A stretch of DNA of 55,683 nucleotides from Pengzhenrongella frigida (lineage in GTDB: Bacteria; Actinomycetota; Actinomycetes; Actinomycetales; Cellulomonadaceae). Within the stretch, counting starts at the first letter, position 1, and each line of letters starts with the position of its first letter. The notes beneath the pieces were generated by a model. That model did no database searches. It was not told where the DNA came from and worked only from the letters and a program-made list of their open reading frames with translations. The position numbers and the translations under genes are program-made. Where the stretch lies: positions 1-55,683 of the forward strand of contig NZ_SDWW01000028.1 in the NCBI RefSeq assembly GCF_004168625.1, in the 5' to 3' direction. This document shows positions 17,865-35,219 of this stretch, in pieces.

Positions 17865-17906
17865 ACGGTCGGCGGTGGGGCGGTCGGCGGTCCCGCCCGG
17901 GAGGCC

Positions 17907-17912
17907 TATCGT
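17907..17912 (+). promoter_or_regulatory. -10 element of a leaderless amidohydrolase promoter
   Basis: TATCGT ends eight bases before GTG 17921. Confidence 0.45.
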
Positions 17913-17920
17913 GAGCGACT

Positions 17921-19570
17921 GTGAGCTCCAGCCTGTACCGCAACGGTGTCATCCACTCCTCCTCCGACCCGTTCGCCGAGGCAGTGCTCGTCGCCGACGG
18001 GGTCATCACCTGGCTCGGCGCTGACGACACGGCAGCGGGGCTCGTGGCCACCGTCGACGAGGTCGTGGACCTGGACGGTGCGCTGGTCGCCCCGGCCTTC
18101 GTGGACGCCCACGCGCACCTGCTCGAGACCGGGCTCGCGCTCGAGGGGCTCGACCTGTCCGCGGCGGCGGGGATCCACTCGCTGGCGGGTGCGCTCTCCG
18201 CCCTCGCCGCGGCCGCGCGGGCCGCGCGGGCCGGCGGCGCGTCCGGGCCGCTGCTCGGGCACGGCTGGGACGAGCGGACCTGGCCGGAGGGTCGCGCGCC
18301 GACCATTCAGGAGCTCGACCTGGCGGCCGGCGGGGCGCCGGTCTACCTCGCGCGGGTCGACGTGCACTCGGCGGTGGTGTCGTCGTCGTTCGCGGCGGTC
18401 GCCGGCCTGGCGGGGCTCGCGGGCTGGACCGCCGACGGCGGCGTCTTGGGCGAGGCCCATCACGCCGCCCGCGAAGCGGCGCGGGACGTCGACCAGCCCC
18501 GGCGCGAGGGCCTCTACCGACAGGCGCTCGCCCGGGCCGCGGCCCACGGCATCGCGTCGGTGCACGAGCACAGCGCGCCCTTCATCGACACCCGCGCCGG
18601 GCTCCTCGAGCTGCTGGCGCTGACCACCGATCCGGCGGCGGCCCTGCCGCACGTCGTGGCCTACCGCGGCGAGCTGTGCACCACGGTCGACGACGCCCGG
18701 GAGATCCTGGCCGCCCTGCCGGGCCTGACGGGCATCGGCGGCGACCTCAACGTCGACGGGTCGCTCGGGTCGCGCACCGCTGCCCTGCGGTCGCCGTACT
18801 CGGACCTGCCCGCCCGCCACGCGCACGCGGGGTCGCTGTACCTGACCGCCGACCAGATCGCCGCCCATCTGGTCGCGGTGACCCGGGCCGGGGTGCAGGC
18901 CGGCTTCCACGTCATCGGCGACCGCGCGATGGACGAGTTCCTCGCCGGGCTGCAGCTGGCGGTCGAGGAGGTCGGGGCCGGTCCGATCCGCGGCGCCGGG
19001 CACCGGGTCGAGCACGCGGAGATGATCGACGCCCCGACGCTGGCCGCGCTCGTCCTGCTCGGGGTGCGCCTGAGCGTGCAGCCCGCCTTCGACGCCGCGT
19101 GGGGCGGGCCGGACGGGATGTACGCGGCCCGGCTCGGGGCCGGCCGCGGTGCGGCGCTCAACCCGCTCGCCGATCTTGCGGCGGCCGGGGTCCCGATGGC
19201 GTTCGGCTCGGACTCGCCCGTGACGCCGTTCGACCCGTGGGCAGGGGTGGGCGCGGCGGTCACCTTGCACGAGGCCGACCAACGCATCTCCGCCCGGGCC
19301 GCGTTCCGCGCGCACACCCGCGGCGGCTGGCGGCTGGCGGGGCTGGACCACACCGGGGCGGGGGAGATCCGGCTGGGAGCCCCCGCCCACCTGGCCGTGT
19401 GGCGCGCCGAGCAGCTGGTGGTCCAGGCCGCGGACGGGCGCGTCTCGGCCTGGAGCACGGACGCGCGCGCCGGGACGCCGCTGCTCCCGGAGGTGGGACC
19501 CGACGCCGTCCCTCCCCGGTGCCTGCGCACCGTGCGCGACGGCGTCGTCGTGCACGACGCCCTCGACTGA
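17921..19570 (+). CDS. YtcJ-like metal-dependent amidohydrolase
   Basis: 549-residue member of the amidohydrolase 3 (YtcJ/AepA) family. The small beta-sandwich at the N-terminus (LYRNGVIHSSSDPFAEAVLVADG, quoted in part) precedes the metal-binding DAHAHLLE. Further ligands are HVIGDRAMDEF, HRVEHAEM and the catalytic Asp in FGSDSPVTPFDPW. Substrate unknown; members cleave amide bonds of varied metabolites. It stands alone between helY and the lnt leader, with its own promoter and a strong hairpin after it. Confidence 0.88.
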   Translation: MSSSLYRNGVIHSSSDPFAEAVLVADGVITWLGADDTAAGLVATVDEVVDLDGALVAPAFVDAHAHLLETGLALEGLDLSAAAGIHSLAGALSALAAAARAARAGGASGPLLGHGWDERTWPEGRAPTIQELDLAAGGAPVYLARVDVHSAVVSSSFAAVAGLAGLAGWTADGGVLGEAHHAAREAARDVDQPRREGLYRQALARAAAHGIASVHEHSAPFIDTRAGLLELLALTTDPAAALPHVVAYRGELCTTVDDAREILAALPGLTGIGGDLNVDGSLGSRTAALRSPYSDLPARHAHAGSLYLTADQIAAHLVAVTRAGVQAGFHVIGDRAMDEFLAGLQLAVEEVGAGPIRGAGHRVEHAEMIDAPTLAALVLLGVRLSVQPAFDAAWGGPDGMYAARLGAGRGAALNPLADLAAAGVPMAFGSDSPVTPFDPWAGVGAAVTLHEADQRISARAAFRAHTRGGWRLAGLDHTGAGEIRLGAPAHLAVWRAEQLVVQAADGRVSAWSTDARAGTPLLPEVGPDAVPPRCLRTVRDGVVVHDALD

Positions 19571-19577
19571 CTGCTCG

Positions 19578-19631
19578 ACCCGGGCACCGCGCGGGCGCCC
19601 CGCACGGGGTGGCGCCACGACGCACCCGGGT
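19578..19631 (+). terminator. nested hairpin after the amidohydrolase gene
   Basis: An outer stem ACCCGGG (19578-19584) with CCCGGGT (19625-19631) encloses an inner one: GGCG CCCC (19594-19601), loop GCAC, GGGG (19606-19609) and CGCC (19613-19616) with three bulged bases. It begins eight bases after the stop. No T-run. Confidence 0.45.
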
Positions 19632-19732
19632 GACGGGGGAGGGCAGAGTCCGACACGCCGCACGACACGCCGTCGCCCGGCCGAGATCCGTCGATGAGGT
19701 ATCTGGCTGACCTGCAGCAACGCCTCTGAACT

Positions 19733-19744
19733 GGACATATGTCC
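19733..19744. promoter_or_regulatory. perfect palindrome GGACATATGTCC, candidate operator
   Basis: The 12-base perfect palindrome ends two bases before a consensus -35 (TTGACA at 19747). The AT core is unusual in this GC-rich setting. The position suggests a regulator site; I cannot name the regulator. Confidence 0.55.
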
Positions 19745-19746
19745 CC

Positions 19747-19774
19747 TTGACAGCGCTCCCAGACCCGGTAGGTT
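19747..19774 (+). promoter_or_regulatory. strong housekeeping-type promoter upstream of lnt
   Basis: TTGACA (19747-19752), a 16-base spacer and TAGGTT (19769-19774) make one of the best promoters in the window. Transcription would start near 19781, about 200 bases before the lnt start. Confidence 0.65.
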
Positions 19775-19780
19775 CACGTC

Positions 19781-19916
19781 TTGTTCCTCTTCTCATAGGC
19801 GCTGGTGCCCCGGGAGTTCATCTCTTGCCGGCACCCGCCCGGGCGGGAAGTGGACACCGGCTGGGCCCGCGTGTTCAACAGAAAACAAGCGCCGCCCTCG
19901 CAAGGGGCGGCCCTTG
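19781..19916 (+). ncRNA. candidate structured leader or small RNA upstream of lnt
   Basis: This non-coding stretch lies downstream of a strong promoter. GGTGCC (19804-19809) can pair with GGCACC (19830-19835), while the overlapping GCCGG (19827-19831) can instead pair with CCGGC (19857-19861) around the palindrome CCCGCCCGGGCGGG (19834-19847). These two pairings exclude each other. It ends in a hairpin at 19886-19916: CAAG plus GCCGCCC, loop TCGCAAG, GGGCGGC plus CTTG, with one C/C mismatch. On the opposite strand that hairpin is followed by TTTTCTGTT. No match to a named RNA family was recognised. Confidence 0.4.
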
Positions 19917-19965
19917 GTACGAAGGACGCGCGGGTCGGTCGGTCGGCGGGAGGGGTCCGCTGTCG

Positions 19966-19971
19966 TACCCT
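19966..19971 (+). promoter_or_regulatory. -10 element of a leaderless lnt promoter
   Basis: TACCCT ends six bases before ATG 19978, giving lnt a second, leaderless transcript besides any read-through from 19747-19774. Confidence 0.5.
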
Positions 19972-19977
19972 TCTGGA

Positions 19978-21540
19978 ATGCCCCACCCCGAGCCCAACCG
20001 ATGGTGGGTGCTCGCCCTCGCCGCCGGCAGCGGACTGCTCACCGAAGCAGCCTTTCCCGACCGCGGCTGGTGGGGTGCCGGCTTTGTCGGGATGGCCCTG
20101 CTCTTCCTCGCGCTGCGCCGCGACGGTGCCCTCTGGAACGCCCTGGTCGGCTTCGTATGGGGGCTGGCCTTCTTCGCCCCGCACATCACCTGGGCCGACT
20201 ACGTCGTCGGGCGCGTGCCATGGGTGGCGCTGACCGTGTTCGAGGCCCTGTACATCGCCCTGTTCGGCGCCCTGTGGACCTGGGCGCGCCGCGGCACGGC
20301 CATCTGGCGCAGCGCCGGGCTGCAGGTGACCGCGTTCGTCGTGCTGTGGGTGGCGGTCGAGGAGCTCCGGTCCGTCGCGCCGTTCGGGGGCTTCCCGTGG
20401 GGCCGGTTGGCGTTCTCCCAGGCCGACTCCCCGCTCGTCCGGCTCGCCTGGCTCGGCGGGGCCCCGCTCGTGTCGGCGGCCGTGGTCGCGATCGGTGCGC
20501 TGCTGGCCGTGGCCATGCTCGCGGCGCGTCGGCTGACGCTGCTCCGCACGGTGTTCGCCACCGCGCTCGCCCTGCTCCTGGTCGGCGTCGGGCTGCTCGT
20601 CCCGCTCGACACCCAGGCCCAGGAGGGGCACCTGCGCGTCGGCGCGGTGCAGGGCAACGTACCCACACCGGGCGCCGAGGCGTTCTCGCAGGCACGCGAG
20701 GTGCTCCGCCTGCACGCGGAGGGCACCCGGGCCCTCCTGGACCAGGTCGAGCCGGGTGAGCTCGACGTCGTGCTCTGGCCCGAGAACGGCACCGACGTCG
20801 ACCCCCAGGTGGACGCGGCCGCGGCCGCGGAGATCGACGCCGCGGCGCGTGCCGTCGACGCCCCGATGCTGGTCGGCACGGTGGAGTACCCGTCGACCGG
20901 CGGCCGGTACAACACGGCGGTGCTGTGGGTTCCCGGCGAGGGGGTGGTGGCGACCTACGTCAAGCAGCACCCGGCGCCGTTCGCCGAGTACATCCCGCTG
21001 CGGCGTTGGGTGCGGCCGTTCTCGTCCGCCGTGGACCTGGTCCGCAACGACATGATCGCCGGCACGAAGGTGGGGGTGGTGCCGCTGGAGTCCGCCCGCC
21101 TGGAGCGGACCGTGCCGCTGGGGGACGTCATCTGCTTCGAGGTGGCGTACGACCCGCTGGTCCGCGAGTCGGTGCGCGCCGGCGCCGAGGTGCTGGTGGT
21201 GCAGACGAACAACGCGTCGTTCGGCTTCACCGACGAGTCCACCCAGCAGCTCGCGATGTCCCGGCTGCGGGCGATCGAGCACGGTCGTGCCACGGTGCAG
21301 ATCTCGACCGTCGGCGTGAGCGGGATCATCGCGCCGAACGGGGTCGTGAGCCAGCAGACCGACCTGTTCACCGCTGCCCAGCTGGTCGCGTCGCTGCCGC
21401 TGCGGACCTCCCTGACCCCGGCGACGCGGATCGGGGACTGGCTCGCGTGGGGCGTCGCGGGGCTCGCGGTCGTGATCGTGCTCTCCGGCATGGTGGGCGC
21501 CACGAGGGTCCGCCGCCCGAACCGGCCGGAGGGCCTGTGA
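19978..21540 (+). CDS. lnt: apolipoprotein N-acyltransferase
   Basis: Adds the third acyl chain to the N-terminal cysteine of lipoproteins at the outer face of the membrane. 520 residues: about seven N-terminal transmembrane segments, a nitrilase-like domain (about residues 215-480) and a last transmembrane helix. The Glu-Lys-Cys triad is visible in LWPENGTD, YVKQHPAPFAEY and GDVICFEVAYD. Actinobacteria make triacylated lipoproteins, and in Mycobacterium tuberculosis Lnt is fused to the Ppm1 synthase; here the two are separate genes sharing one base (TGATG). ATG 19978 is used because upstream in-frame sequence overlaps the leader region. Confidence 0.95.
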   Translation: MPHPEPNRWWVLALAAGSGLLTEAAFPDRGWWGAGFVGMALLFLALRRDGALWNALVGFVWGLAFFAPHITWADYVVGRVPWVALTVFEALYIALFGALWTWARRGTAIWRSAGLQVTAFVVLWVAVEELRSVAPFGGFPWGRLAFSQADSPLVRLAWLGGAPLVSAAVVAIGALLAVAMLAARRLTLLRTVFATALALLLVGVGLLVPLDTQAQEGHLRVGAVQGNVPTPGAEAFSQAREVLRLHAEGTRALLDQVEPGELDVVLWPENGTDVDPQVDAAAAAEIDAAARAVDAPMLVGTVEYPSTGGRYNTAVLWVPGEGVVATYVKQHPAPFAEYIPLRRWVRPFSSAVDLVRNDMIAGTKVGVVPLESARLERTVPLGDVICFEVAYDPLVRESVRAGAEVLVVQTNNASFGFTDESTQQLAMSRLRAIEHGRATVQISTVGVSGIIAPNGVVSQQTDLFTAAQLVASLPLRTSLTPATRIGDWLAWGVAGLAVVIVLSGMVGATRVRRPNRPEGL

Positions 21541-22289
21541 TGCGCACGGTCGTGATCATCCCGACCTACAACGAACGCGACGCCCTGCCGGTGACGCTCG
21601 CGCGCGTGCGCGCCGCCGTGCCCGACGCGGACGTGCTCGTGGTCGACGACGGCAGCCCGGACGGCACGGGCCAGCTCGCGGACCGGGCCGCGGCCGACGA
21701 CGCGGGCGTGCACGTGCTGCACCGCGCGAGCAAGCTGGGGCTCGGCCAGGCGTACGTGGCGGGGTTCACCTGGGCGCTGGCCCGGGGCTACGAGGTCGTC
21801 GTCGAGATGGACGCTGACGGCTCGCACCGCGCCGAGGACCTCCCGCGTCTGCTGGCGGCCCTGCCCGACGCCGATCTGGTGCTCGGGTCTCGCTGGGTCC
21901 CGGGTGGCCGCGTCGTGAACTGGCCGACGCATCGCCAGCTGCTCTCCCGCGGCGGCAACACCTACACGCGGCTCATGCTCGGTTTCCCGCTGCGCGACGC
22001 CACCGGCGGCTTTCGGGCGTACCGCGCGCCGCTGCTCGCCAGCCTCGACCTCGGGGCGGTCGCATCGCACGGGTACTGCTTCCAGGTGGACATGGCCTGG
22101 CGGGTGCTGCGCGCCGGCGGTCGCGTGGTCGAGGTGCCGATCACGTTCGTCGAGCGCGAGCAGGGCACCTCGAAGATGAGCCGCGAGATCGTGGTCGAGG
22201 CGCTCGTCCGGATCACCAGCTGGGGAGTCGCCTTCCACGCACGCCAAACAGCCGACGCGGTGCGCCGGCTGCTTGGTCGAGCGAGGTAG
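21540..22289 (+). CDS. ppm1: polyprenol monophosphomannose synthase
   Basis: Family 2 glycosyltransferase that moves mannose from GDP-mannose to polyprenyl phosphate, the donor for extracytoplasmic lipoglycan and protein mannosylation. 249 residues: VVIIPTYNERDALP, VVDDGSPDGTG, the metal-binding VEMDADGSHRAEDLP, SRGGNTYTRLMLGFPLRDATGGFRAY and the C-terminal VPITFVEREQGTSKMS. No membrane segment, so it probably relies on Lnt for membrane attachment, as described for the two-gene mycobacterial arrangement. Start overlaps the lnt stop by one base. Confidence 0.92.
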   Translation: MRTVVIIPTYNERDALPVTLARVRAAVPDADVLVVDDGSPDGTGQLADRAAADDAGVHVLHRASKLGLGQAYVAGFTWALARGYEVVVEMDADGSHRAEDLPRLLAALPDADLVLGSRWVPGGRVVNWPTHRQLLSRGGNTYTRLMLGFPLRDATGGFRAYRAPLLASLDLGAVASHGYCFQVDMAWRVLRAGGRVVEVPITFVEREQGTSKMSREIVVEALVRITSWGVAFHARQTADAVRRLLGRAR

Positions 22290-22290
22290 C

Positions 22291-22310
22291 TCCCGGGTGC
22301 GAGCCCGGGG
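22291..22310. terminator. hairpin in the convergent ppm1-rbpA gap
   Basis: CCCGGG (22292-22297) and CCCGGG (22304-22309) pair around TGCGAG. The gap between the two stop codons is only 36 bases, so this could serve both genes. No T-run. Confidence 0.4.
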
Positions 22311-22325
22311 ACGAGCGGTGAAGCC

Positions 22326-22670
22326 TCAGGCGCTCCGACGGAGCTTGCCCGCGCGGAGCAGGTCGAGGCGTTCCTCGAGCAGCTCCTCGAGCTCCTTGAC
22401 CGTGCGACGCTCGAGGAGCATGTCCCAGTGCGTACGCGGCTTCTTGCCGTTCTTCGGTTCGGGCCGGGTGGCGTCGCGCAGCAACGCCTCCTCGCCACAC
22501 CGGCACTCCCAGACCAGGGGCACGTCGGCCTCGGTCGAGAAGGGCAGGATGATGGTGTGCCCGTTCGGGCAGTCGTAGTGGGCCTGCAGCCGGGGAGCGA
22601 ATTCCACGCCCTCTTCCGTCTCCAGGCTGTTGGAACCGATGCGCATTCCGCGCAAAGATCGGTTCGCCAT
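22326..22670 (-). CDS. rbpA: RNA polymerase-binding protein RbpA
   Basis: Actinobacterial factor that binds the principal sigma factor and RNA polymerase and stabilises the open complex; linked to rifampicin tolerance. 114 residues beginning MANRSLRGMRIGSNSLETEEGVEFAPR, followed by a core domain with CPNGH and CRCGEE (cysteine pairs) and the sigma-interacting C-terminal helix RTVKELEELLEERLDLLRAGKLRR. GGAGGT lies four bases before ATG 22670. The frame is open further upstream (to 22721), but that extension is not part of the family and lies between promoter and ribosome site. Confidence 0.95.
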   Translation of the reverse strand: MANRSLRGMRIGSNSLETEEGVEFAPRLQAHYDCPNGHTIILPFSTEADVPLVWECRCGEEALLRDATRPEPKNGKKPRTHWDMLLERRTVKELEELLEERLDLLRAGKLRRSA

Positions 22671-22719
22671 CTGTACCTCCGTGGTGCCGTCATTCGACTC
22701 GTGCTCTACCGTTGTGTTC

Positions 22720-22745
22720 AACGCATACGACCCCGCCCGTGTTCC
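22720..22745 (-). promoter_or_regulatory. SigR/SigH-type promoter of rbpA
   Basis: On the minus strand GGAAC (22745 to 22741), an 18-base spacer and GTT (22722 to 22720) match the GGAAT-N18-GTT pattern of the actinobacterial oxidative-stress ECF sigma factor SigR. The expected transcription start is about 40-45 bases before the rbpA ATG. In Streptomyces rbpA belongs to the SigR regulon. The remaining bases 22746-22918 show nothing I can support. Confidence 0.65.
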
Positions 22746-22918
22746 ACGACGAGGTGAAGGTCCCGTGAACGTCGGTCTGCGTGGCTCGGTTGGCCAGGTT
22801 GTGCGGGGCGATCCGGGTGAAGTACGCCGCCTCGGCGCCCCGGACTCATGGTGGCGGCCCGCGAGCCCCGCTGCAAACTTTCCCGGTGTGACGCTCGACT
22901 CCTTCTAGGACTTCCGCC

Positions 22919-23593
22919 TCATGTGAGGCCGAGCGGAAGGACCCGGGAGCGGTCGCGGCCGATGGCGACCATGGCCCGCACCGCGACCCCGGCCTCGGCC
23001 ATCGCCTCGGACAGCGCCTGGGACCAGCCGGCCTCGAACGTGCCGCGGTCACCGCCGCCGCGGCGCACGAGCCCGAACGCCAGGCACCCGCCGGGCGCGT
23101 TCTCGTCGAGGAGCGTGCGCAGCTGCCGGGCGAGATTGGCGACCATCGCGCGGTTGACGATCGTGGGCAGGTCGCCGATCGGGATCACGAGCGGTAGCAC
23201 ACGGTCGTGCTCGTCGAGGAACACCACCCACAGGGCGCGGGGGCCATCGCGTTCGGGGCCCACGAGGGCGAGGAGGTGCTCGTGCACGTCGTCGGCCGTG
23301 CACAGGATCCGCCACGGTCGCGGTATCCGCTCGTCGTCGTCCTCGTCGTCCTCGTCGAAACCTCCGAAGTAGCCGAACGCGTCCAGATCGTCCTCGTCGG
23401 AGTCGTCATCGAAGGGCATGGGGTCGAACGGGCCGCGGCGGAGGATCTCCTCGTGCGAGAGGGGGTTGCCGAAGCGGTCGGCGCACATCGGGAAGCTCTC
23501 ACCGAACGGGAACGTCCGGTCGAGCGCATGCGGATCGTCGGGGGAGTCGGCGCCGTCGAGGTCGTCGTCCCAGCTGTCGTTGAGGTTCGTCAT
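22919..23593 (-). CDS. acidic hypothetical protein
   Basis: 224 residues, family not recognised. The first 85 residues are very acidic with runs of Asp and Glu (DDDSDEDDLDAFGYFGGFDE). The rest looks like a folded alpha/beta domain (PRALWVVFLDEHDRVLPLVI, then NLARQLRTLLDENAPGGCLAFGLVRRG and a final SEAMAEAGVAVRAMVAIGRD region). The second half vaguely recalls JAB/RadC-like domains, but no metal motif is visible. ATG 23593 is preferred over GTG further upstream because the acidic text starts there; no ribosome site is seen and GAGGCT precedes it by seven bases. Confidence 0.75.
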   Translation of the reverse strand: MTNLNDSWDDDLDGADSPDDPHALDRTFPFGESFPMCADRFGNPLSHEEILRRGPFDPMPFDDDSDEDDLDAFGYFGGFDEDDEDDDERIPRPWRILCTADDVHEHLLALVGPERDGPRALWVVFLDEHDRVLPLVIPIGDLPTIVNRAMVANLARQLRTLLDENAPGGCLAFGLVRRGGGDRGTFEAGWSQALSEAMAEAGVAVRAMVAIGRDRSRVLPLGLT

Positions 23594-23688
23594 GCCGGTC
23601 AGCCTCGCCACGGCGTCCGGTGCGCACCCCGCGGGCCTGCGGCGCTGGGGACGACCTGCCCGAGCGGTGGTCCTGTGGGCGGGTCGAC

Positions 23689-25803
23689 TCAGAGGTCGGG
23701 GCCGCCGGGCTGGGCCAGGACCACGCCGTCGGTGAACATCACACCGTCCGCGAACCGGGCCTCGACCCGACCGCCACCGAACTGCTCGGCGTACAGCCGG
23801 GCGTACAACCCGTCGGGTGCGGCGACCAGCTCCTCGTGCGTCCCGTGCTCGACCACCCGGCCGTCGTCGACCACGAAGATCACGTCGGCATGCCGGATCG
23901 TCGAGAGCCGGTGCGCGATCGCGAGCGTCGTCCGCCGGGTCATCGCCACCGCCAGTGCCTGCTGCACGAGCCGTTCGGACGCCGAGTCGAGGGCGGAGGT
24001 CGCCTCGTCGAGGATGAGGATGCGCGGGTCCTTGAGCAGCACCCGGGCGATCGCGATCCGCTGCTTCTCGCCCCCGGACAGGCGGTAGCCCCGCTCGCCG
24101 ACCGTCGTCGCGTAGCCGTCGGCGAACGCCACGATCCGGTCATGGATGTTCGCCGCGCGGCAGGCGTCCTCCAGCTGGGCGTCCGTGGCGTCCGGGCGCG
24201 CGTACCGCAGGTTCTCGGCGATCGTGGCGTGGAAGAGGTACGGATCCTGGGTGACCATGCCGACGACGTCGGCCAGGGACCCCATCGTGACGTCCCGCAC
24301 GTCGAAACCGTCGACGCGGACGGCGCCACGGTCGACCTCGTACAGCCGGGGGACCAGGTAGCTCAGGGTCGTCTTGCCGGCGCCCGACGGCCCGACGAAC
24401 GCCGCGAGCTGACCCGGCTCGATCACGAATGACGTGTCACGCACGGCCCACGGACGCGGCCGGGTGTCCGGGCCCCGGGCGGCGCCGGGGTCCGCCAGGG
24501 GCGGTGCGGGCTGGGTCGAGCCGCCGGGTCGGCCGCCGCCGGTCGGCGCGAGCCCGAACGCCAGCCCGATCCCTTTCCCGCCGCCACCCATGCCGCCGCC
24601 GTGCATCCCGGGCAGGCGGGGCACCGGCGCCGGTGCGTACAGCCGCGGGGGAGGGGGGTAGGCGAACCAGACGCCGTCGAGCTCGACCCGCCCGCGCGTG
24701 GTCGCCCGATCGAGCGCCACCGCGCCGGGGCGGTCGGTGATCGCGGGGGTGAGGTCCAGGTACTCGAAGATCCGGCGGAACAGCGCCAGCGAGGTCTGCA
24801 CGTCCAGGGCGACCCGCATCAGGGACAGCATCGGCATCAGCAGCCGGGCCTGCAGGGTCGAGAACGCCACGAGGGTGCCGGCCGTGAGCACCTGGGTGTC
24901 GGTGGAGCCGGCGAGCATGTACCCCGCCACCAGGTAGACCAGCGCGGGCGTGATCGCCATGAAGGCGGACACGACCCCGAAGAACCCCTGGCCGGCCATC
25001 GCCTGCCGCACCTGCAGGTCGACCAAGCGGTCGTTCTCGTCGCGGTACCGGGTGACCTCGGAGTCGGCCCGGTTGAAGATCTTCGCGAGCAGCACCCCCG
25101 AGACGCTCAGCGCCTCCTGCGTGATCGCGGTCATGTCCGACAGCGACTCCTGGGTGGCGCGCGCGAGCCGCTGGCGGCGCGCCCCGACGCGGCGCTGCAG
25201 CACGATGAACACCGGCATCAGCGCCAGTGCGACGACCGTCAGCTGCCAGCTCAGCAGCACCATCGCGATGATGGACGCGATCACGGTCACCGAGCTGGAC
25301 AGGATGGACGACGCCGTCGTGGTCAGCACCGAGCCGACCCCGCCGACGTCGTTGGCGAGCCGGGACTGGATCGACCCCGTCTTGGTGGTCGTGAAGAACG
25401 CCAGCTCCATGCGTTCGAGGTGCTCGAACAGCCGCCCGCGCAGGTCGGCCATCGCGAGGTTGCCGACCTTGGTCGTGAGGTAGGTCTGCCCGACGCCGAT
25501 CGCCGAGCTGAGCAGCGGGATCGCGATCATCGCGGCCGTCAGCTGCGCCAGCAGCGGCAGGTCCACGCCCGTGCCGGTGGCGAACCCGAGCGCGTCGTCG
25601 AACACGCGACGGGTGAGGAACGGGGTGATCACCCCGAGCGTCGAGGCGACCAGGATCGCGACGGCGACCAGGACCAGCCGGCCCCGGTAGGGCGTGAGCA
25701 GCGCGCCGATCCGGCGCAGCAGGGCGGGGGAGGCCGCGACCTCCGGGGTGCTCGCGTGCGGTGGGGTGGCTGGCACGCCCCCAGTGTTGTCTGGCACGCC
25801 CAC
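23689..25803 (-). CDS. ABC exporter, fused transmembrane and ATPase domains
   Basis: 704-residue half-transporter of the MsbA/multidrug type, probably a homodimer in the membrane; substrate unknown. Six transmembrane segments (residues about 40-350) precede the nucleotide-binding domain, which has the A-loop FAYPPPP, Walker A GPSGAGKTT, Q-loop TQDPYLF, signature LSGGEKQR, Walker B ILILDEAT and H-loop AIAHRLSTIR. An insert of about 75 residues, rich in Gly, Pro and Met (HGGGMGGGGKGIGLAFG), separates the A-loop from Walker A, longer than usual. Three in-frame GTG codons (25803, 25797, 25776) inside a tandem repeat compete as start. Confidence 0.9.
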   Translation of the reverse strand: MGVPDNTGGVPATPPHASTPEVAASPALLRRIGALLTPYRGRLVLVAVAILVASTLGVITPFLTRRVFDDALGFATGTGVDLPLLAQLTAAMIAIPLLSSAIGVGQTYLTTKVGNLAMADLRGRLFEHLERMELAFFTTTKTGSIQSRLANDVGGVGSVLTTTASSILSSSVTVIASIIAMVLLSWQLTVVALALMPVFIVLQRRVGARRQRLARATQESLSDMTAITQEALSVSGVLLAKIFNRADSEVTRYRDENDRLVDLQVRQAMAGQGFFGVVSAFMAITPALVYLVAGYMLAGSTDTQVLTAGTLVAFSTLQARLLMPMLSLMRVALDVQTSLALFRRIFEYLDLTPAITDRPGAVALDRATTRGRVELDGVWFAYPPPPRLYAPAPVPRLPGMHGGGMGGGGKGIGLAFGLAPTGGGRPGGSTQPAPPLADPGAARGPDTRPRPWAVRDTSFVIEPGQLAAFVGPSGAGKTTLSYLVPRLYEVDRGAVRVDGFDVRDVTMGSLADVVGMVTQDPYLFHATIAENLRYARPDATDAQLEDACRAANIHDRIVAFADGYATTVGERGYRLSGGEKQRIAIARVLLKDPRILILDEATSALDSASERLVQQALAVAMTRRTTLAIAHRLSTIRHADVIFVVDDGRVVEHGTHEELVAAPDGLYARLYAEQFGGGRVEARFADGVMFTDGVVLAQPGGPDL

Positions 25804-25873: not shown

Positions 25874-26353
25874 TCAGGCCAGGAAGACCCGCAGCGCCTC
25901 GACCACCAGGGCGTGGTCGTCGGCCTGCGCCAGGCCCGAGACCGTCACCGTGCCGACCACGCCCACCCCGACCACGCGCACCGGGAAGCACCCGCCGTGC
26001 GCGGCGTACTGCTGCAGCGGCAGGTCGTGCGCGACGGCGAACGTGGTGCCCTTGGCGACCGCGCGCAGGCCGACGAGGTAGGACGACGCCCCGAACCGCT
26101 CGACCACCCGGACCTTGCGCTCGACCCAGGTGTCGTTATCGGCGACCGTGCCGGGCAGGGCCGCGTGGAACAGCTGTTGGGTGCCGCGGCGCACATCGAT
26201 CGTGATCGGCAGCTCGCGCTCCTGGGCGAGCTCGACGAGCAGGCAACCCAACTGCCACGCGTCGGCGTTGTCGAACCGGGTGAACACCAGGTCGCGCTCG
26301 TGCGCCTCGAGGGTCGCGATCGTGGCCAGGACGGTGGGATCGGGTGCGCTCAT
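25874..26353 (-). CDS. UPF0303 / heme-degrading-domain-like protein
   Basis: 159-residue protein of the UPF0303 family, related to the DUF336 (HbpS/GlcG) fold. Recognisable stretches are RFDNADAWQLGCLLVELA, ITIDVRRGTQQLFHAALPG, DNDTWVERKVRVVERFG, and AAHGGCFPVRVVG near the C-terminus. Function in bacteria is not established, and the heme link is only by family. ATG 26353 follows TACGAT at seven bases. The gap 25804-25873 before the ABC exporter has only the repeat noted there. Confidence 0.85.
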   Translation of the reverse strand: MSAPDPTVLATIATLEAHERDLVFTRFDNADAWQLGCLLVELAQERELPITIDVRRGTQQLFHAALPGTVADNDTWVERKVRVVERFGASSYLVGLRAVAKGTTFAVAHDLPLQQYAAHGGCFPVRVVGVGVVGTVTVSGLAQADDHALVVEALRVFLA

Positions 26354-26434: not shown

Positions 26435-26462
26435 AACGCCGATAAGGTACATTATGACAAAC
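26435..26462. other. dif: candidate chromosomal dif site (XerC/XerD recombination)
   Basis: A left arm AACGCCGATAA (26435-26445), a six-base centre GGTACA (26446-26451) and a right arm TTATGACAAAC (26452-26462) reproduce the 11-6-11 layout of dif. The right arm matches the XerD half-site core TTATG followed by a CAA trait, and the left arm has the CGATAA seen in actinobacterial dif. The site is AT-rich in very GC-rich surroundings, lies in a non-coding gap of about 270 bases (26354-26620) and coincides with a change of prevailing gene strand. No integrase or transposase is nearby, which argues against a mobile-element attachment site. Confidence 0.75.
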
Positions 26463-26620: not shown

Positions 26621-26872
26621 ATGCCCGAACTGATCCCGTCCGACGAGCCCGATCCGACCGAGTCCGAGGACGACGACGCCCCGACCTCGATCCGGGACAA
26701 CTGGTGGTGGTCGCCCTCGTTCGCCATCGTCATCGGCGTCGTGGTGGTGCTGTTCCAGGTCGGACCGATCAACGACTCCGGTGGGGTCTGGCTGAACTGG
26801 GCGGTCGCCGGGATCGGCATCGCCCTGGCCGCCACCGGTGCTGCCCGCCTCGTGCGGGCCTACCCGCGCTGA
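26621..26872 (+). CDS. small two-segment membrane protein, unknown
   Basis: 83 residues: an acidic N-terminus (SDEPDPTESEDDDAP) and two transmembrane segments (about residues 32-47 and 55-74, WSPSFAIVIGVVVVLFQVG and WLNWAVAGIGIALAATGAAR). Family not recognised; proteins like this are common and uncharacterised in actinobacteria. The last 13 bases overlap the end of the convergent small gene on the other strand. A -10-like CAGTAT lies five bases before the ATG. Confidence 0.7.
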   Translation: MPELIPSDEPDPTESEDDDAPTSIRDNWWWSPSFAIVIGVVVVLFQVGPINDSGGVWLNWAVAGIGIALAATGAARLVRAYPR

Positions 26873-27792: not shown

Positions 27793-27840
27793 GGCATCCC
27801 CTCCCCCGCCGGCGGGGCGCCCTGCGCGGTCGAGGCAGGC

Positions 27841-28497
27841 TCAGGGCAGCTCGAGCCCGACGCCGTCGACGGGCCGCAGGTACTGCGCGCCGCCCAGTCC
27901 CAGCCCGTGCGGACCGAGCAGGCGGTCGACCAGGTCGCAGCCGATCCGGGAGTACAGCGCGTCGTGGATGGGGATCGTCAGGCGCGGGCCGACGGCCCGG
28001 ACGTAGTCGACCACGTCGCCCAGGCGCAGCCACGGAGCGGCGATCGGGATCAGCAGCACGGCCACCGGGCGGGGCGGCACCGTGAACGAGTCCCCCGGGT
28101 GCAGGACGGACCCGTCGATGAGGTAGGCGACGTTGGCCAGGCGTGGGACGTCGGGATGGACCGCCTCGTGCAGGCCGCCGTAGACCTCCACCTCGAAACC
28201 GGCCACCTCGAACGTGTCCCCTGCGCGCACGGCGTGGACGCGGTCGGCGAGCTCTGGAGCACCCTCGAGCAGCAGCGCGACGACGTCGGCCGGGGCCCAG
28301 ACCTCGAGATCCGGCCGGGACACCAGGTCGCGACGCAACGTGACCGGCACGACGTGGTCGGCGTGCTGGTGGGTGACCAGGACGGCGTCGGCGTCGTGCG
28401 TGGCGTCGCTCGCGCTGAACGAGCCGGGGTCGATCACGAGCCGGGCGCCGTCCTTCTCCAGACGTACGCACGCGTGGCTCAGCCGTGTCAGGAACAT
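27841..28497 (-). CDS. MBL-fold metallohydrolase (UlaG-like)
   Basis: 218 residues with the metallo-beta-lactamase metal motif THQHADHV and downstream ligands in VLHPGDSF and PIHDALYS. N-terminus MFLTRLSHACVRLEKDGARL is typical of the UlaG-like L-ascorbate lactonase group, though substrates vary widely. Start follows CAGGCT at seven bases, a near-consensus leaderless -10. It is 23 bases from the pyc stop and on the same strand. Confidence 0.85.
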   Translation of the reverse strand: MFLTRLSHACVRLEKDGARLVIDPGSFSASDATHDADAVLVTHQHADHVVPVTLRRDLVSRPDLEVWAPADVVALLLEGAPELADRVHAVRAGDTFEVAGFEVEVYGGLHEAVHPDVPRLANVAYLIDGSVLHPGDSFTVPPRPVAVLLIPIAAPWLRLGDVVDYVRAVGPRLTIPIHDALYSRIGCDLVDRLLGPHGLGLGGAQYLRPVDGVGLELP

Positions 28498-28519
28498 GGC
28501 CGCCAGCCTGCCACGAGGG

Positions 28520-31500
28520 TCAGCCGATCACCAGCACCAGGTCGCCGCCCTCGAGCTGCTGGGTCGCCCCGATCGCCAGCCGGCGCACCACTCCCCCGAT
28601 CGGGGTCGTGATCGCCGCCTCCATCTTCATGGCCTCCACGGTGGCGACGGTCTGGCCGGCCTTGACCCGCTGACCCTCCTGGACCACCGGCGTGACCGCC
28701 CCGGCGAACGGCGCCGCGATGTGACCGGCGACCCCGGGATCGGCCTTCTCGGACGACGCGAGGTCGACCTCGATCCCGGTGTCGCGGACCTGCAGCGGGC
28801 GCAGCTGCCCGTTGAGGGTGAACATCGCGCTGCGCATGCCCCGCTCGTCCGGGATGCCGACCGCCTCGAGCCCGACGAGCAGCCGCACGCCCTTCTCCAG
28901 GACGATCTCGACCTCGCCGCCCGGGTCCATCCCGTACAGGTAGCTCTTGGTGTCGAGCACCGACACGTCGCCGTGGGCCGCACGGGACGCCTCGAACTCC
29001 TTGGTCGGCCCGGGGAACAACAGGTGGTTGAGCCGGTCCCGGCGGGTCGCGGAGTCGCCGTCCAGGTCCTGGCGGTCCTGGTCGGTCAGGGGCTGCACGC
29101 CGGACCGCACGGCGCGGCCCTTGAGGGCCTTGGTGCGGAACGGCTCGGGCCACCCGCCCGGCGGAACGCCGAGCTCGCCCGACAGGAACCCGATCACCGA
29201 GTCGGGGATGTCGAAGTCCTGCGGCCGGTCGGCGAAGTCCGCCGGGTCCGCGCCGCGGGCCACCAGGTGCAGGGCGAGGTCGCCCACCACCTTCGACGAC
29301 GGGGTGACCTTGACCAGCCGGCCGAGGATGTGGTCGGCCGCGGCGTACATCTCCTCGATCGCCTCGAACTGGTCGCCCAGACCGAGCGCGATCGCCTGCT
29401 GGCGCAGATTGGACAGCTGACCGCCCGGGATCTCGTGGTCGTACACGCGACCGGTCGGTCCGGGCAGGCCGGACTCGAACGGCCGGTACAGGCGGCGCAC
29501 GCCCTCCCAGTACGGCTCGAGGTCGCAGACCGACCGCAGGGAGAGCCCGGTGTCCCGCTCGGTGAACGCCAGCGCGGCCACCAGCGCCGACATGGGCGGC
29601 TGGCTGGTCGTGCCGGCCATCGGAGCGCTGGCCACGTCGACGGCGTCGACCCCGGCGTCGGCGGCCGCGAGCAGGGTCGCCAGCTGGCCGCCGGTGGTGT
29701 CGTGGGTGTGCAGGTGGACCGGCAGGTCGAACCGCGCCCGCAGCCCGGCCACGAGCGCCGTGGCGGCGGCGGGGCGCAGCAGGCCGGCCATGTCCTTGAT
29801 CGCCAGGACATGGGCGCCGGCCTCGACGATCCGGTCGGCCAGCCGGAGGTAGTAGTCGAGCGTGTACAGGTCTTCCGCCGGGTCCAGCAGGTTGCCGGTG
29901 TAGCACAGCGCGACCTCGGCGACCGTCGTCCCCGTCGCGCGCACGGACTCGATCGCGGGTCGCATCTGCTCGACGTCGTTCAGGGCGTCGAAGATTCGGA
30001 ACACGTCCACCCCGGTCGCCGCGGCCTCGCGCACGAAGGCGTCCGTGACCTCGGTCGGGTAGGGCGTGTAGCCGACCGTGTTGCGGCCGCGCAGCAGCAT
30101 CTGGATCGCGATGTTCGGGAGCGTCTCGCGCAGCGTGGCGAGGCGGCTCCACGGGTCTTCGCCGAGGAACCGCAGCGCGACGTCGTAGGTGGCGCCGCCC
30201 CACGCCTCGACGGACAGCAGCTGCGGCGTCAGCAGCGCGACGTGCGGCGCGACGGCGACCAGGTCGTGCGTGCGCACGCGGGTCGCCAGGAGCGACTGGT
30301 GCGCATCGCGGAACGTGGTGTCGGTGACGGCCAACGGGCGCTGGGCACGCAGCGCGGCCGCGAAGCGCTCCGGGCCGAGCTCCAGCAGCCGCTGCCGGCT
30401 GCCGTCCGGGATGGCCACGCCGAGCGGGAGCACGGGGAGCTTGGAGCGCGGGTCCGCGAGCGTGGGGGCCACACCGTACGGCTTGTTCACCGTGACGTTG
30501 CCGAGGAACCCGAGCAGCTTGGTGCCCCGGTCGGCGCTCGCGCGCGCGGCCAGCAGCTGCGGGCGCAGGTCGATGAACGACGTCGACAGGTCGCCGGCGA
30601 CGAACGCGTCGTCGGCCAAGACGGCCTGCAGGAACGAGATGTTCGTGCGCACCCCACGGATCCGGAACTCCGCCAGCGCCCGGCGGGCCCGGCGGACCGC
30701 CATCGGGAAGTCCCGGCCGCGGCAGGTGAGCTTGACCAGCATCGAGTCGAAGTGGCCGCTGACCTCCGCCCCCGCGGAGGCCGTCGCGCCATCGAGCCGC
30801 ACCCCGGCGCCGCCCGGCGAGCGGTAGGCGATGATGCGGCCGGTGTCCGGTCGGAACCCGTTGGCCGGGTCCTCGGTGGTGATGCGGCACTGCAGCGCGA
30901 AGCCGTTGACCCGCACGGAGTCCTGGGAGATCCCGAGGTCGGCGAGGGTCTCCCCCGCCGCGATCCGCAGCTGGGAGGACACCAGGTCGATGTCGGTGAC
31001 CTCCTCGGTCACGGTGTGCTCCACCTGGATGCGCGGGTTCATCTCGATGAAGACGTGCTGACCGGCGCGGTCCCCCTCGGTGGCCACGAGGAACTCGACC
31101 GTGCCGGCATTCTCGTACCCGATGCTGCGTGCGAACGTCACGGCGTCGCGGCACAGCGCGTCCCGGATCGCGGGATCCAGGTTCGGCGCCGGCGCGATCT
31201 CGATGACCTTCTGGTGGCGCCGCTGGAGCGAGCAGTCACGCTCGAACAGGTGTACGACGTTCCCGGCCTTGTCGGCCAGGATCTGGACCTCGATGTGCCG
31301 GGGCCGCAGCACTGCCTGCTCGAGGAACATCGTGTCGTCGCCGAAGGAGCCGCTGGCCTCGCGCATCGCGGCCGCGAGGGCCTCCCGCAGGTCCTCGCGG
31401 CGCTCGACCCGCCGCATCCCGCGGCCTCCCCCGCCGGCGACCGCCTTGGCGAACAGCGGGAAGCCGACCTCCTCGGCCGCCACGACGAGCACCTCGATGT

Positions 31501-31930
31501 CGGCGGACGGCGCGCTGGAGGCGAGGACGGGAATCCCCGCGTCCCGCGCCGCCTGCAGGGCGAGCACCTTGTTCCCGGCCAGCTCGAGCACCTCCGGCGG
31601 GGGCCCGATGAAGACGAGGCCCGCGGCCTGGCAGGCGCGCGCGAGCTCGGGGTTCTCTGACAGGAATCCGTAGCCGGGGTAGATCGCGTCGGCGCCCGAG
31701 TCGCGTGCGACCCGGATCATCTCGTCGATGTCGAGGTACGCCCGCACCGGGTGGCCCGTCTCCCCGATCGGGTAGGACTCGTCGGCCTTGAGCCGGTGCT
31801 CGGAGTTGCGGTCCTCGTGCGGGAACACCGCGACGGTCCGCGCACCGAGCTCGTAGGCGGCCCGGAAGGCCCTGACGGCGATCTCCGCCCGGTTCGCGAC
31901 AAGCACCTTCGAGAACACGTGCCACCCCAT
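28520..31930 (-). CDS. pyc: pyruvate carboxylase
   Basis: Carboxylates pyruvate to oxaloacetate with biotin and ATP, replenishing the TCA cycle. 1136 residues in the standard order: biotin carboxylase (1 to about 450, with AVAGGGGRGMRRV and EMNPRIQVEHTVTEE), carboxyltransferase (about 520-810, with DTTFRDAHQSLLATR, NVEQM-type metal site and the carbamylated Lys in AIKDMAGLL), then the biotin carrier domain with VEAMKMEAA, the biotinylated Lys at residue 1102. No domain is missing. ATG 31930 is the longest start; GTG 31918 (VFSKVLVANRAEIAVRAF) matches the usual N-terminus and follows GGGGTGG, so it may be the real one. Confidence 0.95.
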   Translation of the reverse strand: MGWHVFSKVLVANRAEIAVRAFRAAYELGARTVAVFPHEDRNSEHRLKADESYPIGETGHPVRAYLDIDEMIRVARDSGADAIYPGYGFLSENPELARACQAAGLVFIGPPPEVLELAGNKVLALQAARDAGIPVLASSAPSADIEVLVVAAEEVGFPLFAKAVAGGGGRGMRRVERREDLREALAAAMREASGSFGDDTMFLEQAVLRPRHIEVQILADKAGNVVHLFERDCSLQRRHQKVIEIAPAPNLDPAIRDALCRDAVTFARSIGYENAGTVEFLVATEGDRAGQHVFIEMNPRIQVEHTVTEEVTDIDLVSSQLRIAAGETLADLGISQDSVRVNGFALQCRITTEDPANGFRPDTGRIIAYRSPGGAGVRLDGATASAGAEVSGHFDSMLVKLTCRGRDFPMAVRRARRALAEFRIRGVRTNISFLQAVLADDAFVAGDLSTSFIDLRPQLLAARASADRGTKLLGFLGNVTVNKPYGVAPTLADPRSKLPVLPLGVAIPDGSRQRLLELGPERFAAALRAQRPLAVTDTTFRDAHQSLLATRVRTHDLVAVAPHVALLTPQLLSVEAWGGATYDVALRFLGEDPWSRLATLRETLPNIAIQMLLRGRNTVGYTPYPTEVTDAFVREAAATGVDVFRIFDALNDVEQMRPAIESVRATGTTVAEVALCYTGNLLDPAEDLYTLDYYLRLADRIVEAGAHVLAIKDMAGLLRPAAATALVAGLRARFDLPVHLHTHDTTGGQLATLLAAADAGVDAVDVASAPMAGTTSQPPMSALVAALAFTERDTGLSLRSVCDLEPYWEGVRRLYRPFESGLPGPTGRVYDHEIPGGQLSNLRQQAIALGLGDQFEAIEEMYAAADHILGRLVKVTPSSKVVGDLALHLVARGADPADFADRPQDFDIPDSVIGFLSGELGVPPGGWPEPFRTKALKGRAVRSGVQPLTDQDRQDLDGDSATRRDRLNHLLFPGPTKEFEASRAAHGDVSVLDTKSYLYGMDPGGEVEIVLEKGVRLLVGLEAVGIPDERGMRSAMFTLNGQLRPLQVRDTGIEVDLASSEKADPGVAGHIAAPFAGAVTPVVQEGQRVKAGQTVATVEAMKMEAAITTPIGGVVRRLAIGATQQLEGGDLVLVIG

Positions 31931-32113
31931 CTTCTTGCCGTTCGCAGGCGCACGGCCAGCGAGTCGTGTGAACTCGGGTGCTCCCGGTCAGGGCGGCGGG
32001 CGAACCCGCGCCTCCCCAGCGATCGGCGTGATCATCCCACGATGCGGGGGGCGATGTGCTCGTCAGATGTCCCACCGCGGTGTGGTCTCACCCTGTGAAC
32101 CCGTTCCTGCCGC

Positions 32114-32119
32114 TACGGT
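32114..32119 (+). promoter_or_regulatory. -10 element of a leaderless parA-like promoter
   Basis: TACGGT ends six bases before GTG 32126. The rest of the 195-base pyc-parA divergent gap shows no other clear element. Confidence 0.5.
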
Positions 32120-32125
32120 GAGCGC

Positions 32126-32899
32126 GTGCTGGTGCTAGGGGTGTGCAGTCTCAAGGGTGGTGTGGGGAAGACCTCGGTGACCCTCGGCCTCGCGTCGGCC
32201 GCCGCCGCCAGGGGGGTGCGCACCCTGGTGATCGATCTCGACCCGCAGGGCGACACGACCATGGCGCTGGGTGCCGACAGCACCGACCGGCTCGATGTCG
32301 CGGCGGTGCTCGACGACCCGCGCTCGTCGGTGGTCGACCGCTCGATCGCCCCGAGCGCCTGGGCGCCCGACGGGCTCGACGTGATGCTGGGCTCCGCGCG
32401 CTCGGCGGCGCACGACGGGCCCGGGTCCGACGAGGATCTCGACCGGCTCGCGTTCGCGCTCTCGTTCGTCGGCGACTACGAGCTCGTCCTGATCGACTGC
32501 CCGCCCTCGTTGGGTGGCCTCACGAAGGCGGGCCTGATGGCCTGCGACCGCGCCGTGATCGTCACCGAGCCCGGGCTGTTCGCCGTGATGGCCGTCGGGC
32601 GCGCCATGCGCACGATCGACGAGCTCCGCCGCGGTCCGGCCCGCGAGCTCCAACCGCTCGGCATCATCGTGAACCGGGTCCGGGGCCGCTCGGTCGAGCA
32701 GACCTACCGGCTCGACGAGCTCAAGACGCTGTATGGCCCGCTGGTGCTCTCCCCGGCCATCCCGGAGCGCGCAGCGCTGCAGCAGGCACAAGGAGCCGCC
32801 CGCGGGTTGCACTCGTGGCCGGGGGCCTCGGCCGCCGAGCTGGCAGATATGTTCGACCAGCTGCTCGACCGGGTGCTGCGCGCGCCGCGCACCAACTGA
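32126..32899 (+). CDS. orphan ParA-family ATPase
   Basis: 257-residue deviant-Walker ATPase: KGGVGKT in the first 16 residues, LVIDLDPQGDTT (Walker A'), LVLIDCPPSLG (Walker B) and the VNRVRGRS loop. No parB gene or parS cluster lies near, so this is an orphan ParA that may position something other than the origin. Its place beside the ftsR-garA cluster recalls orphan ParA proteins linked to division such as PldP of Corynebacterium, but orthology is inference. Confidence 0.88.
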   Translation: MLVLGVCSLKGGVGKTSVTLGLASAAAARGVRTLVIDLDPQGDTTMALGADSTDRLDVAAVLDDPRSSVVDRSIAPSAWAPDGLDVMLGSARSAAHDGPGSDEDLDRLAFALSFVGDYELVLIDCPPSLGGLTKAGLMACDRAVIVTEPGLFAVMAVGRAMRTIDELRRGPARELQPLGIIVNRVRGRSVEQTYRLDELKTLYGPLVLSPAIPERAALQQAQGAARGLHSWPGASAAELADMFDQLLDRVLRAPRTN

Positions 32900-33024
32900 C
32901 GCGGGGCCGTCCAGGAACTGGCCGCCGCCCGGGACCCAGGAGCCGTCCGGAACGCTGATGCCGCCCGGGAGCCAGGCGGCGGGTATGACCCCGCGAGCGG
33001 GTGCTGATCAGTGAGCGGTGCTGA

Positions 33025-33606
33025 TCAGCCGGCGGTGCGGGCGTGTCGACGCTGGGCGAGCTCGTCGTTCGCGCCGTTGGTGGGGCTGTCCTCGAGGCGC
33101 TCGGTCGGCAGGGCCGCCAGCGTGCCCTCGACCTCGCGCCAGACGCGGCCGACGGCGATGCCGAAGACGCCCTGACCGCCCTGCACCAGGTCGAAGACCT
33201 CGTCGGCGGACGTGCACTCGTACACGGAGGCGCCGTCGGACATCAGCGTGATCTGCGCGAGATCGTCCACGCCGCGCTCGCGCAGGTGCGCCACTGCCGT
33301 ACGGATCTGCTGCAGGGACACGCCCGTGTCGAGGAGCCGCTTGACGACCTTGAGCACGAGGATGTCGCGGAAGCTGTACAGCCGCTGCGTCCCGGAACCG
33401 GTCGCGGTGCGGATCGTCGGCTCGACCAGTCCGGTGCGGGCCCAGTAGTCGAGCTGGCGGTAGGTGATCCCCGCCGCCCGGCAGGCCGTCGGGCCGCGGT
33501 AGCCGGTCGTGGTGTCGAGGTCGGGAAGCTCATCGCCGAAGAGCAGGCCCTGCGCGCGCTGCGGGACCCTGCCTGCGGCGTCCCCTGTCTCGCCGGTGCC
33601 GCTCAC
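33025..33606 (-). CDS. MerR-family regulator (Rv1830-like)
   Basis: 193 residues. The MerR helix-turn-helix (YRGPTACRAAGITYRQLDYW, then TGSGTQRLYSFRDILVLKVVKRL) is followed by an effector-like domain (DGASVYECTSADEVFDLV). In Mycobacterium tuberculosis the gene order Rv1827-Rv1830 is garA, ftsR-like, bifunctional nuclease, MerR, as here. GTG 33606 is preferred because GGAGGA precedes it by three to four bases; the longer frame to 33681 lacks a ribosome site. Gap 32900-33024 has only a GGTGCTGATCA direct repeat. Confidence 0.88.
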   Translation of the reverse strand: MSGTGETGDAAGRVPQRAQGLLFGDELPDLDTTTGYRGPTACRAAGITYRQLDYWARTGLVEPTIRTATGSGTQRLYSFRDILVLKVVKRLLDTGVSLQQIRTAVAHLRERGVDDLAQITLMSDGASVYECTSADEVFDLVQGGQGVFGIAVGRVWREVEGTLAALPTERLEDSPTNGANDELAQRRHARTAG

Positions 33607-33720
33607 GGGTCCTCCATCTGGCCGTTGCACGCATCCGCCGAAGATGTCGGCGCTCGTCTCCCGGCTCGGCGCGCCCTGCAAAGGCCGCGCGTGAGTCGGG
33701 GTGCTTCGGATGTCAGTGCA

Positions 33721-33749
33721 ACGCTAGGCCGCGCCGGTAGGGCAGTCAA
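33721..33749 (-). promoter_or_regulatory. housekeeping-type promoter of the merR gene
   Basis: On the minus strand TTGACT (33749 to 33744), a 17-base spacer and TAGCGT (33726 to 33721) give a near-consensus promoter with an untranslated leader of about 105 bases. Confidence 0.6.
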
Positions 33750-33827
33750 CGACGCCGCGCCGTGGCCGAGCGAGCGGGTTGTCGTGGCGCAGGTCTCACC
33801 GCCGGGCCACGGCGGGTGCCGCCGCGC

Positions 33828-34343
33828 TCACCCGCCGGGAGGTGCGGGGTTCTCGCCGGTGTCGAAGTCCTCCGGGGTGACCTGTTCGAGGAACTCGCGG
33901 AACCGTTCGAGCTCCTGCTCCGCGGGCCCCGCCGATGCCTCGACCCCGGCGATCGCGACGACCTCCGCCGAGCAGAGCACCGGGCTTCCGGTGCGCACCG
34001 CGAGAGCGATGGCATCGGACGCCCGCGAGTCGACCCGGACCCCGGTGGTGAGCACGAGCTCGGCATGGAAGACGCCGTCGGTGAGGCTCGTGATCTCGAT
34101 ACGTACGAGCCCGACGCCGAGCGCCGCCAGCACGTCACGCAGCAGGTCGTGCGTCATCGGACGGGGCGGGACGATGCCGGCCTGGGCGGCCGCGATGGCG
34201 CTGGCCTCGTTCGGCCCGATGAGGATCGGGACCAGAAGCTCGGCCGCCGGGTCGAGCAGGAGCACGACGATCTCGTCGTCGAGGCGGTGCTGGCGCACAC
34301 CGACGACCTCCACCGGGACCAGTTCCTCGTCGTCTCCCGTCAC
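33828..34343 (-). CDS. bifunctional nuclease family protein (DUF151)
   Basis: 171-residue BFN-domain protein: VGVRQHRLDDEIVVLLLD, LVPILIGPNEASAIAAA and the conserved DSRASDAIALAVRTGSPVL. The family is named for plant nucleases; its activity in bacteria is unproven. Corresponds by context to Rv1829. GTG 34343 has TAGCGT six bases upstream (34355 to 34350), again leaderless spacing. Confidence 0.88.
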   Translation of the reverse strand: MTGDDEELVPVEVVGVRQHRLDDEIVVLLLDPAAELLVPILIGPNEASAIAAAQAGIVPPRPMTHDLLRDVLAALGVGLVRIEITSLTDGVFHAELVLTTGVRVDSRASDAIALAVRTGSPVLCSAEVVAIAGVEASAGPAEQELERFREFLEQVTPEDFDTGENPAPPGG

Positions 34344-34349
34344 AGCTCC

Positions 34350-34355
34350 ACGCTA
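34350..34355 (-). promoter_or_regulatory. -10 element of a leaderless DUF151 gene promoter
   Basis: TAGCGT on the minus strand ends six bases before GTG 34343; GGAG within those six bases is too close to act as a ribosome site. Confidence 0.4.
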
Positions 34356-34380
34356 CGGCCTTCGTCCCCTTCTGGGGGAA

Positions 34381-35163: not shown

Positions 35164-35219
35164 CGCGCCCCGTTCACACGGTGCCGATGTGTCGACGCGA
35201 CCTCACGCACGACTGCCGC

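Follow-up and report, generated by a model that had tools for sequence, protein, structure and literature searches.

The 28-bp sequence at positions 26435..26462 is almost certainly the chromosomal dif site of a Cellulomonas-like actinobacterium. The sequence-only reading had proposed a likely chromosomal dif at this place, and the proposal is now supported by the match of the sequence to the dif of Frankia alni, its single-copy status, its conservation in relatives, its location opposite dnaA in relatives with complete chromosomes and the convergence of a polar motif, GGGGGAG, which switches strand at the site. The window is the whole stretch of DNA that was analysed and corresponds to the entire contig C47 (55,683 bases) of a 126-contig draft genome of 4,316,912 bases. 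Its identification as the chromosomal dif places the terminus region on this contig. The site and its two flanking genes are composed as follows:

26435..26462, plus strand: dif site, 28 bp arranged 11-6-11, AACGCCGATAA-GGTACA-TTATGACAAAC
26435..26445, plus strand: left arm AACGCCGATAA, core CCGATAA invariant in 52/52 of the relatives' sites used
26446..26451, plus strand: central region GGTACA, first base G being the minority state (5/52 relatives)
26452..26462, plus strand: right arm TTATGACAAAC, TTATG invariant in 52/52 of the relatives' sites used
25874..26353, minus strand: HbpS-like gene (PF03928)
26621..26872, plus strand: small frame without Pfam match

By analogy with E. coli dif, we take the left arm AACGCCGATAA to be the XerC side and the right arm TTATGACAAAC to be the XerD side.

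The layout described initially, an 11-6-11 arrangement with CGATAA closing the left arm, TTATG opening the right arm and about 22 of 28 positions shared with actinobacterial dif, was found as described. Scanning the window with the 28-mer dif of F. alni, with up to nine mismatches allowed, returned 26435-26462 as the sole match, with six mismatches (22/28). A core pattern allowing up to three mismatches was found once in the window and in none of 100 shuffled versions of it. Applied to all 4,316,912 bases of the draft, the same search gave one match, so that dif is single-copy by the genome-wide check that had been suggested, and a reversed control pattern gave no match across the genome. Both core patterns had been designed with knowledge of the site; fairer tests are provided by the F. 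alni scan and by a matrix derived from the sites of 52 relatives. This matrix, which left out the site itself and a second match in relative G023, assigned 43.1 bits to dif and -9.4 to the runner-up in the window.

The immediate setting also agrees with the initial description of an AT-rich, non-coding sequence. The site has a GC content of 39% relative to a mean of 73% for the 28-mers of the window, of which 0.05% are equally AT-rich, and it is flanked by two divergently oriented genes, modelled at 25874-26353 (-) and 26621-26872 (+), among the 41 that we called in the window from codon-position GC. It had further been stated that no integrase lies alongside, and for tyrosine recombinases this was found to be correct: of the 12 tyrosine-recombinase domains of the genome, none is on the dif contig. 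The ten window proteins that were scanned against Pfam, out of the 41 gene models, included no mobile-element family. Pfam matches in the neighbourhood (22326-32899) comprise RbpA, an ABC transporter, a PilZ-domain protein, a beta-lactamase-fold protein, a pyruvate-carboxylase-like protein and a ParA/MinD-like ATPase.

We searched for the dif pattern in 59 genomes, namely our own and 58 relatives, and detected it with up to two mismatches in 52 of the 58. A relaxed pattern recovered a credible site, with zero or one mismatch, in four of the six remaining genomes (G009, G013, G020 and G053); G020 additionally presented eight places at two mismatches, and six were obtained with the reversed control. 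Using this relaxed pattern, no credible site was found in G045, which had two-mismatch places only and in a number equal to the control, or in G050, which had no place at all. The dif core of G002, a member of the same genus, is identical to that of the Cellulomonas aerilata locus L043. When contigs were searched with a gene neighbouring dif, the top-ranking locus came from an Actinomycetales MAG and the majority of those ranked next came from Cellulomonas, hence our description of the genome as Cellulomonas-like. In G023, a second and weaker dif-like match is located on another contig (G023:C6:190639-190661), and it is possibly the Xer site of a mobile element. The pattern was also considered as a phylum-wide signature, and this was dropped: with a related pattern and at most one mismatch, only 30 of 80 genomes sampled across the phylum, our own included, presented a match.

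Our genome is a draft of 126 contigs, and the position of dif relative to the origin was therefore taken from relatives. The gene dnaA was found in 20/20 genomes searched. Eleven relatives were comparable, as they carry both genes' positions, dnaA and dif, on a single contig whose length is given, and in all 11 dif is opposite dnaA, at a distance of 0.470-0.538 of the chromosome and with a shorter arm of at least 0.462; these relatives are mutually non-independent. Three further relatives, for which only rounded sizes were used, gave distances of 0.50-0.51. The comparison excludes G036, which has no length, and five genomes, our own included, with dnaA and dif on separate contigs. Relative to dnaA, dif is on the same strand in 5/11 relatives and on the opposite strand in 6/11. 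In Actinoplanes and similar genera (loci L078, L092, L096, L097, L099, L100, L102-L106 and L108), the HbpS-like gene was likewise observed no more than about 8 kb away from a dif-pattern match, which suggests that its residence near the terminus is widely conserved.

The flanks of the site are strongly polarized. Words with a strand bias were chosen using 38 20-kb stretches of the same-genus relative G004, each separated from the dif of that genome by 200 kb or more, so that the window was uninvolved in the choice. The top heptamer in these far stretches was GGGGGAG, with 123 copies on the leading strand and 16 on the lagging strand. In the window, 26 copies point towards dif and none away (two-sided sign test, 3e-8):

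2687..25732, plus strand: 12 GGGGGAG motifs directed rightward to dif, 12/12 of those left of dif, at 2687, 3391, 6846, 10707, 10794, 14495, 16346, 19360, 19635, 23540, 24647 and 25726
27801..54714, minus strand: 14 GGGGGAG motifs directed leftward to dif, 14/14 of those right of dif, at 27801, 28591, 30950, 31426, 38529, 41571, 43134, 44972, 45190, 49346, 50118, 52210, 53476 and 54708

The interval in which the motif switches strand, 25726-27801, contains dif. The same convergence was found within 100 kb of dif in seven relatives, with towards/away counts of 69/3 (G019), 59/1 (G011), 57/3 (G037), 115/5 (G046), 56/0 (G038), 83/2 (G022) and 44/1 (G004). The peak stretch of the cumulative GGGGGAG count includes dif in 7/7 of these relatives, and de novo ranking of heptamers near dif placed GGGGGAG first in six of them and second in G004. 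Among the 80 named loci obtained from a contig search with a gene neighbouring dif, 22 contain a single match to the dif pattern, and the motif copies of these 22 loci are directed towards dif in 204/204 cases. Across ten matching genomes of the phylum sample, 101 copies within 20 kb point towards the site and six away, five of the six being in G078; GGGGGAG is absent within 20 kb of the weak dif-pattern match of G069.

Within 200 kb of dif in G004, 90 copies of GGGGGAG are on the leading strand and three on the lagging strand. The density of the motif per kb in this genome is 0.38 up to 20 kb from dif, 0.19-0.24 at 20-1000 kb and 0.17 beyond, and its strand bias is 0.86 beyond 1000 kb and 0.93-0.98 nearer, with no steady climb within 1000 kb. 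Our own genome contains 919 copies in 4317 kb, compared with 26 in the 55.7-kb window. Among the 100 of these 919 matches that were listed, several contigs presented one main polarity (C31, 17/17 minus; C30, 17/18 plus; C11, 10/11 minus; C33, 9/11 plus) and C32 was mixed (five plus, seven minus). On contig C22, where dnaA is located at 10.7-11.2 kb, the matches listed are 11/11 minus up to 24.8 kb, followed by 14 plus and six minus, a ragged divergence near the origin.

We considered other causes for this polarity. A coding-strand bias was rejected, as all 26 motifs point to dif whatever their coding class (12 on the coding strand, eight on the template strand and six between gene models); approximately 68% of the coding bases of the window (27,378/40,486) are on the leading strand. 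General G-richness was likewise rejected: GGGGGTG, GGGGGCG and GGGGAAG do not favour the leading strand in either G004 or the window. In other relatives GGGGGTG and GGGGGCG were variable, being leading-biased in G038 (13 vs 4 and 31 vs 12) and reversed in G046 (11 vs 27 and 43 vs 101), and GGGGGAC partly has the same bias as GGGGGAG (8 vs 0 in the window). Finally, the E. coli KOPS motif GGGNAGGG was discarded as the main local signpost because it is non-polar in the window (nine towards dif, eight away); elsewhere its polarity was mild in the far G004 stretches (85 vs 48) and stronger in G019 (23 vs 6).

The motif itself is not new. We dropped GGGGGAG as a novel candidate because it corresponds to the published octamer (T/C)GGGGGAG, an architecture imparting sequence or AIMS (excerpts of PMC2830990, PMC3219685 and PMC3022926). 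In those excerpts, the AIMS octamers G(A/T/C)GGGGGA and (T/C)GGGGGAG are plotted to locate the dif of Corynebacterium, and the excerpt of PMC2830990 credits AIMS to Hendrickson and Lawrence 2006. As far as these excerpts describe it, the corynebacterial word is the same, is biased to the leading strand and switches strand at dif. In G004, the base preceding GGGGGAG is C or T in 183/213 leading-strand copies, and in our window the published octamer pair is found 28 times towards dif and once away (38100, +). Since the motif is the published AIMS octamer, both dif and its polar motif are of known kinds. Kono et al. 2011 (PMC3025954) report the dif of F. alni and dif predictions in 66/66 actinobacterial genomes, and the actinobacterial dif described there shares with ours a length of 28 bp, the 11-6-11 layout, the core CGCCGATAA...ACATTATG.CAA, a single copy and a location opposite the origin, here as observed in complete relatives. 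Relative to the F. alni dif, our site has six substitutions, such as a G in place of T at the start of the central region. This dif adds a new but ordinary member to a familiar class, and its identification is routine. A literature search within a limited collection found no paper joining 'dif site' with 'Cellulomonas'.

In contrast to the motif, GC skew carries little information here. The sequence-only reading had proposed a skew extremum near the site as a check, and this was not observed: the cumulative GC skew of the window reaches its maximum at 55562 and its minimum at 15982, with no extremum at dif. Taken literally, raw GC skew thereby fulfils one of the refuting conditions named in that reading, the absence of a skew change at this place. 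Within 100 kb of dif, however, the expected excess of skew on the left side was present in three of seven relatives and not in the other four, and raw GC skew was for this reason set aside as uninformative. A shift in GC skew is a correlate of dif rather than a strict requirement. In G004, the mean skew of 20-kb stretches was +0.0014 on the left (30 stretches) and -0.0136 on the right (27 stretches), a weak and noisy difference (Mann-Whitney P 0.0035; 57 of 58 stretches compared). GC skew is usable in corynebacteria according to the excerpts of PMC2830990 and PMC3022926, whereas it is nearly absent in the Cellulomonas-like genome studied here.

Sites resembling dif are used by mobile elements that exploit Xer recombinases (excerpt of PMC3025954), and the site might be an attachment site or scar of a phage, an integrative element or a plasmid pdif; the second, weaker match in G023 lends this some weight. 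Such an origin is nevertheless very improbable for a site that is single-copy in the genome, on a contig without tyrosine recombinase and with no mobile-element family among the ten Pfam-scanned window proteins (41 gene models), and towards which polar motifs point from either side. The six differences from the F. alni dif, including the first central base, could also be read as those of a chance or decayed dif-like sequence. We give this reading next to no credence: the site outscores the runner-up in the window by over 50 bits, every base of its 23-bp core is found at the same position in some relative, GGGGGAG converges on it and the genome has no other match at three mismatches or fewer.

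A further possibility is that dif is real and that replication usually ends elsewhere, so that the site serves dimer resolution and is not the meeting point of the forks. This refines the dif call and is not an alternative to it, and we consider it a serious possibility, if somewhat short of an even chance. PMC3025954 argues that replication ends near, not at, dif, PMC13342612 reports some replicons in which dif does not coincide with the coverage minimum, and GC skew has no extremum at our site. On the other hand, in 11/11 comparable relatives the location of dif deviates by no more than 4 percentage points from the point opposite dnaA. The initial claim that the window contains the terminus stands for the terminus region, which is on this contig, and not for an exact meeting of forks at dif, which does not follow (PMC3025954).

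The identification as chromosomal dif is accompanied by a predicted set of cognate proteins. Of the 12 tyrosine-recombinase domains in the genome, the best two were scanned further using the NCBIfam equivalog cut-offs for XerD (TIGR02225) and XerC (TIGR02224). The protein on contig C44 is XerD-like, with 326.3 bits for TIGR02225, just under the cut-off of 329.6, and 356.7 for NF001399, above its cut-off of 279; its best match among solved structures is XerD (1a0p). The protein on contig C30 is XerC-like, with 292.4 bits for TIGR02224, clearly under the cut-off of 335.15. A single FtsK-gamma domain was found in the genome, on C82 (L112), and exceeds its cut-off. By these domain matches, the genome carries XerC-like, XerD-like and FtsK-gamma genes, the predicted partners of dif. 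Like the XerCD/dif and FtsK/KOPS system of E. coli, the system includes a pair of Xer-like recombinases, an FtsK-gamma domain and G-rich motifs that converge on dif, and it differs from it in that the KOPS GGGNAGGG is non-polar in our window. A switch of KOPS orientation at dif is described as a structural hallmark of the system (excerpt of PMC13342612).

By analogy with the E. coli pathway, XerCD would bind and recombine at the candidate dif, which would mark the site of action of XerCD and FtsK, as the sequence-only reading had supposed. Once crossing over had linked the sister chromosomes as a dimer, septal FtsK would load onto the G-rich motifs of each arm with a set orientation and would pump DNA up to XerCD bound at both copies of dif. 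Its gamma domain would then activate XerD on the right arm TTATGACAAAC, and XerC on the left arm AACGCCGATAA would finish the exchange across GGTACA, turning the dimer into two circles.

The FtsK-gamma domain may also explain the choice of motif. The part between helices 2 and 3 binds KOPS (excerpt of PMC5052618). All 18 actinobacterial genomes read (C82/L112 and loci L253-L269) present the FtsK-gamma stretch G(F/Y)A(K/R)AGR(L/I/M)MD, and the same stretch is GYNRAAR(I/M)IE in the solved FtsK structures 2j5p and 2ve8; the domain of P. frigida has GFAKAGR..D in place of GYNRAAR..E. Because the stretch differs from the solved structures in 18/18 genomes, the motif and the protein domain that reads it would have been altered jointly, and such a joint change of FtsK-gamma and motif is plausible. 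The FtsK-gamma of G069 has the usual actinobacterial stretch, yet GGGGGAG is lacking near its weak dif-pattern match. From these sequence comparisons, and as its polarity would fit, we lean towards the view that (T/C)GGGGGAG, presented in the corynebacterial papers only as an AIMS with a strand bias, is the actinobacterial KOPS, read by FtsK-gamma, and that reader and signpost changed together between phyla.

The terminus region of this draft genome is now assigned to one 56-kb contig, with the directions of both arms given. In these GC-rich Actinomycetales, where GC skew is silent, the GGGGGAG switch pinpoints dif to approximately 2 kb. If it is true that FtsK-gamma of this phylum reads (T/C)GGGGGAG, the co-evolution of motor and signpost would become directly testable.
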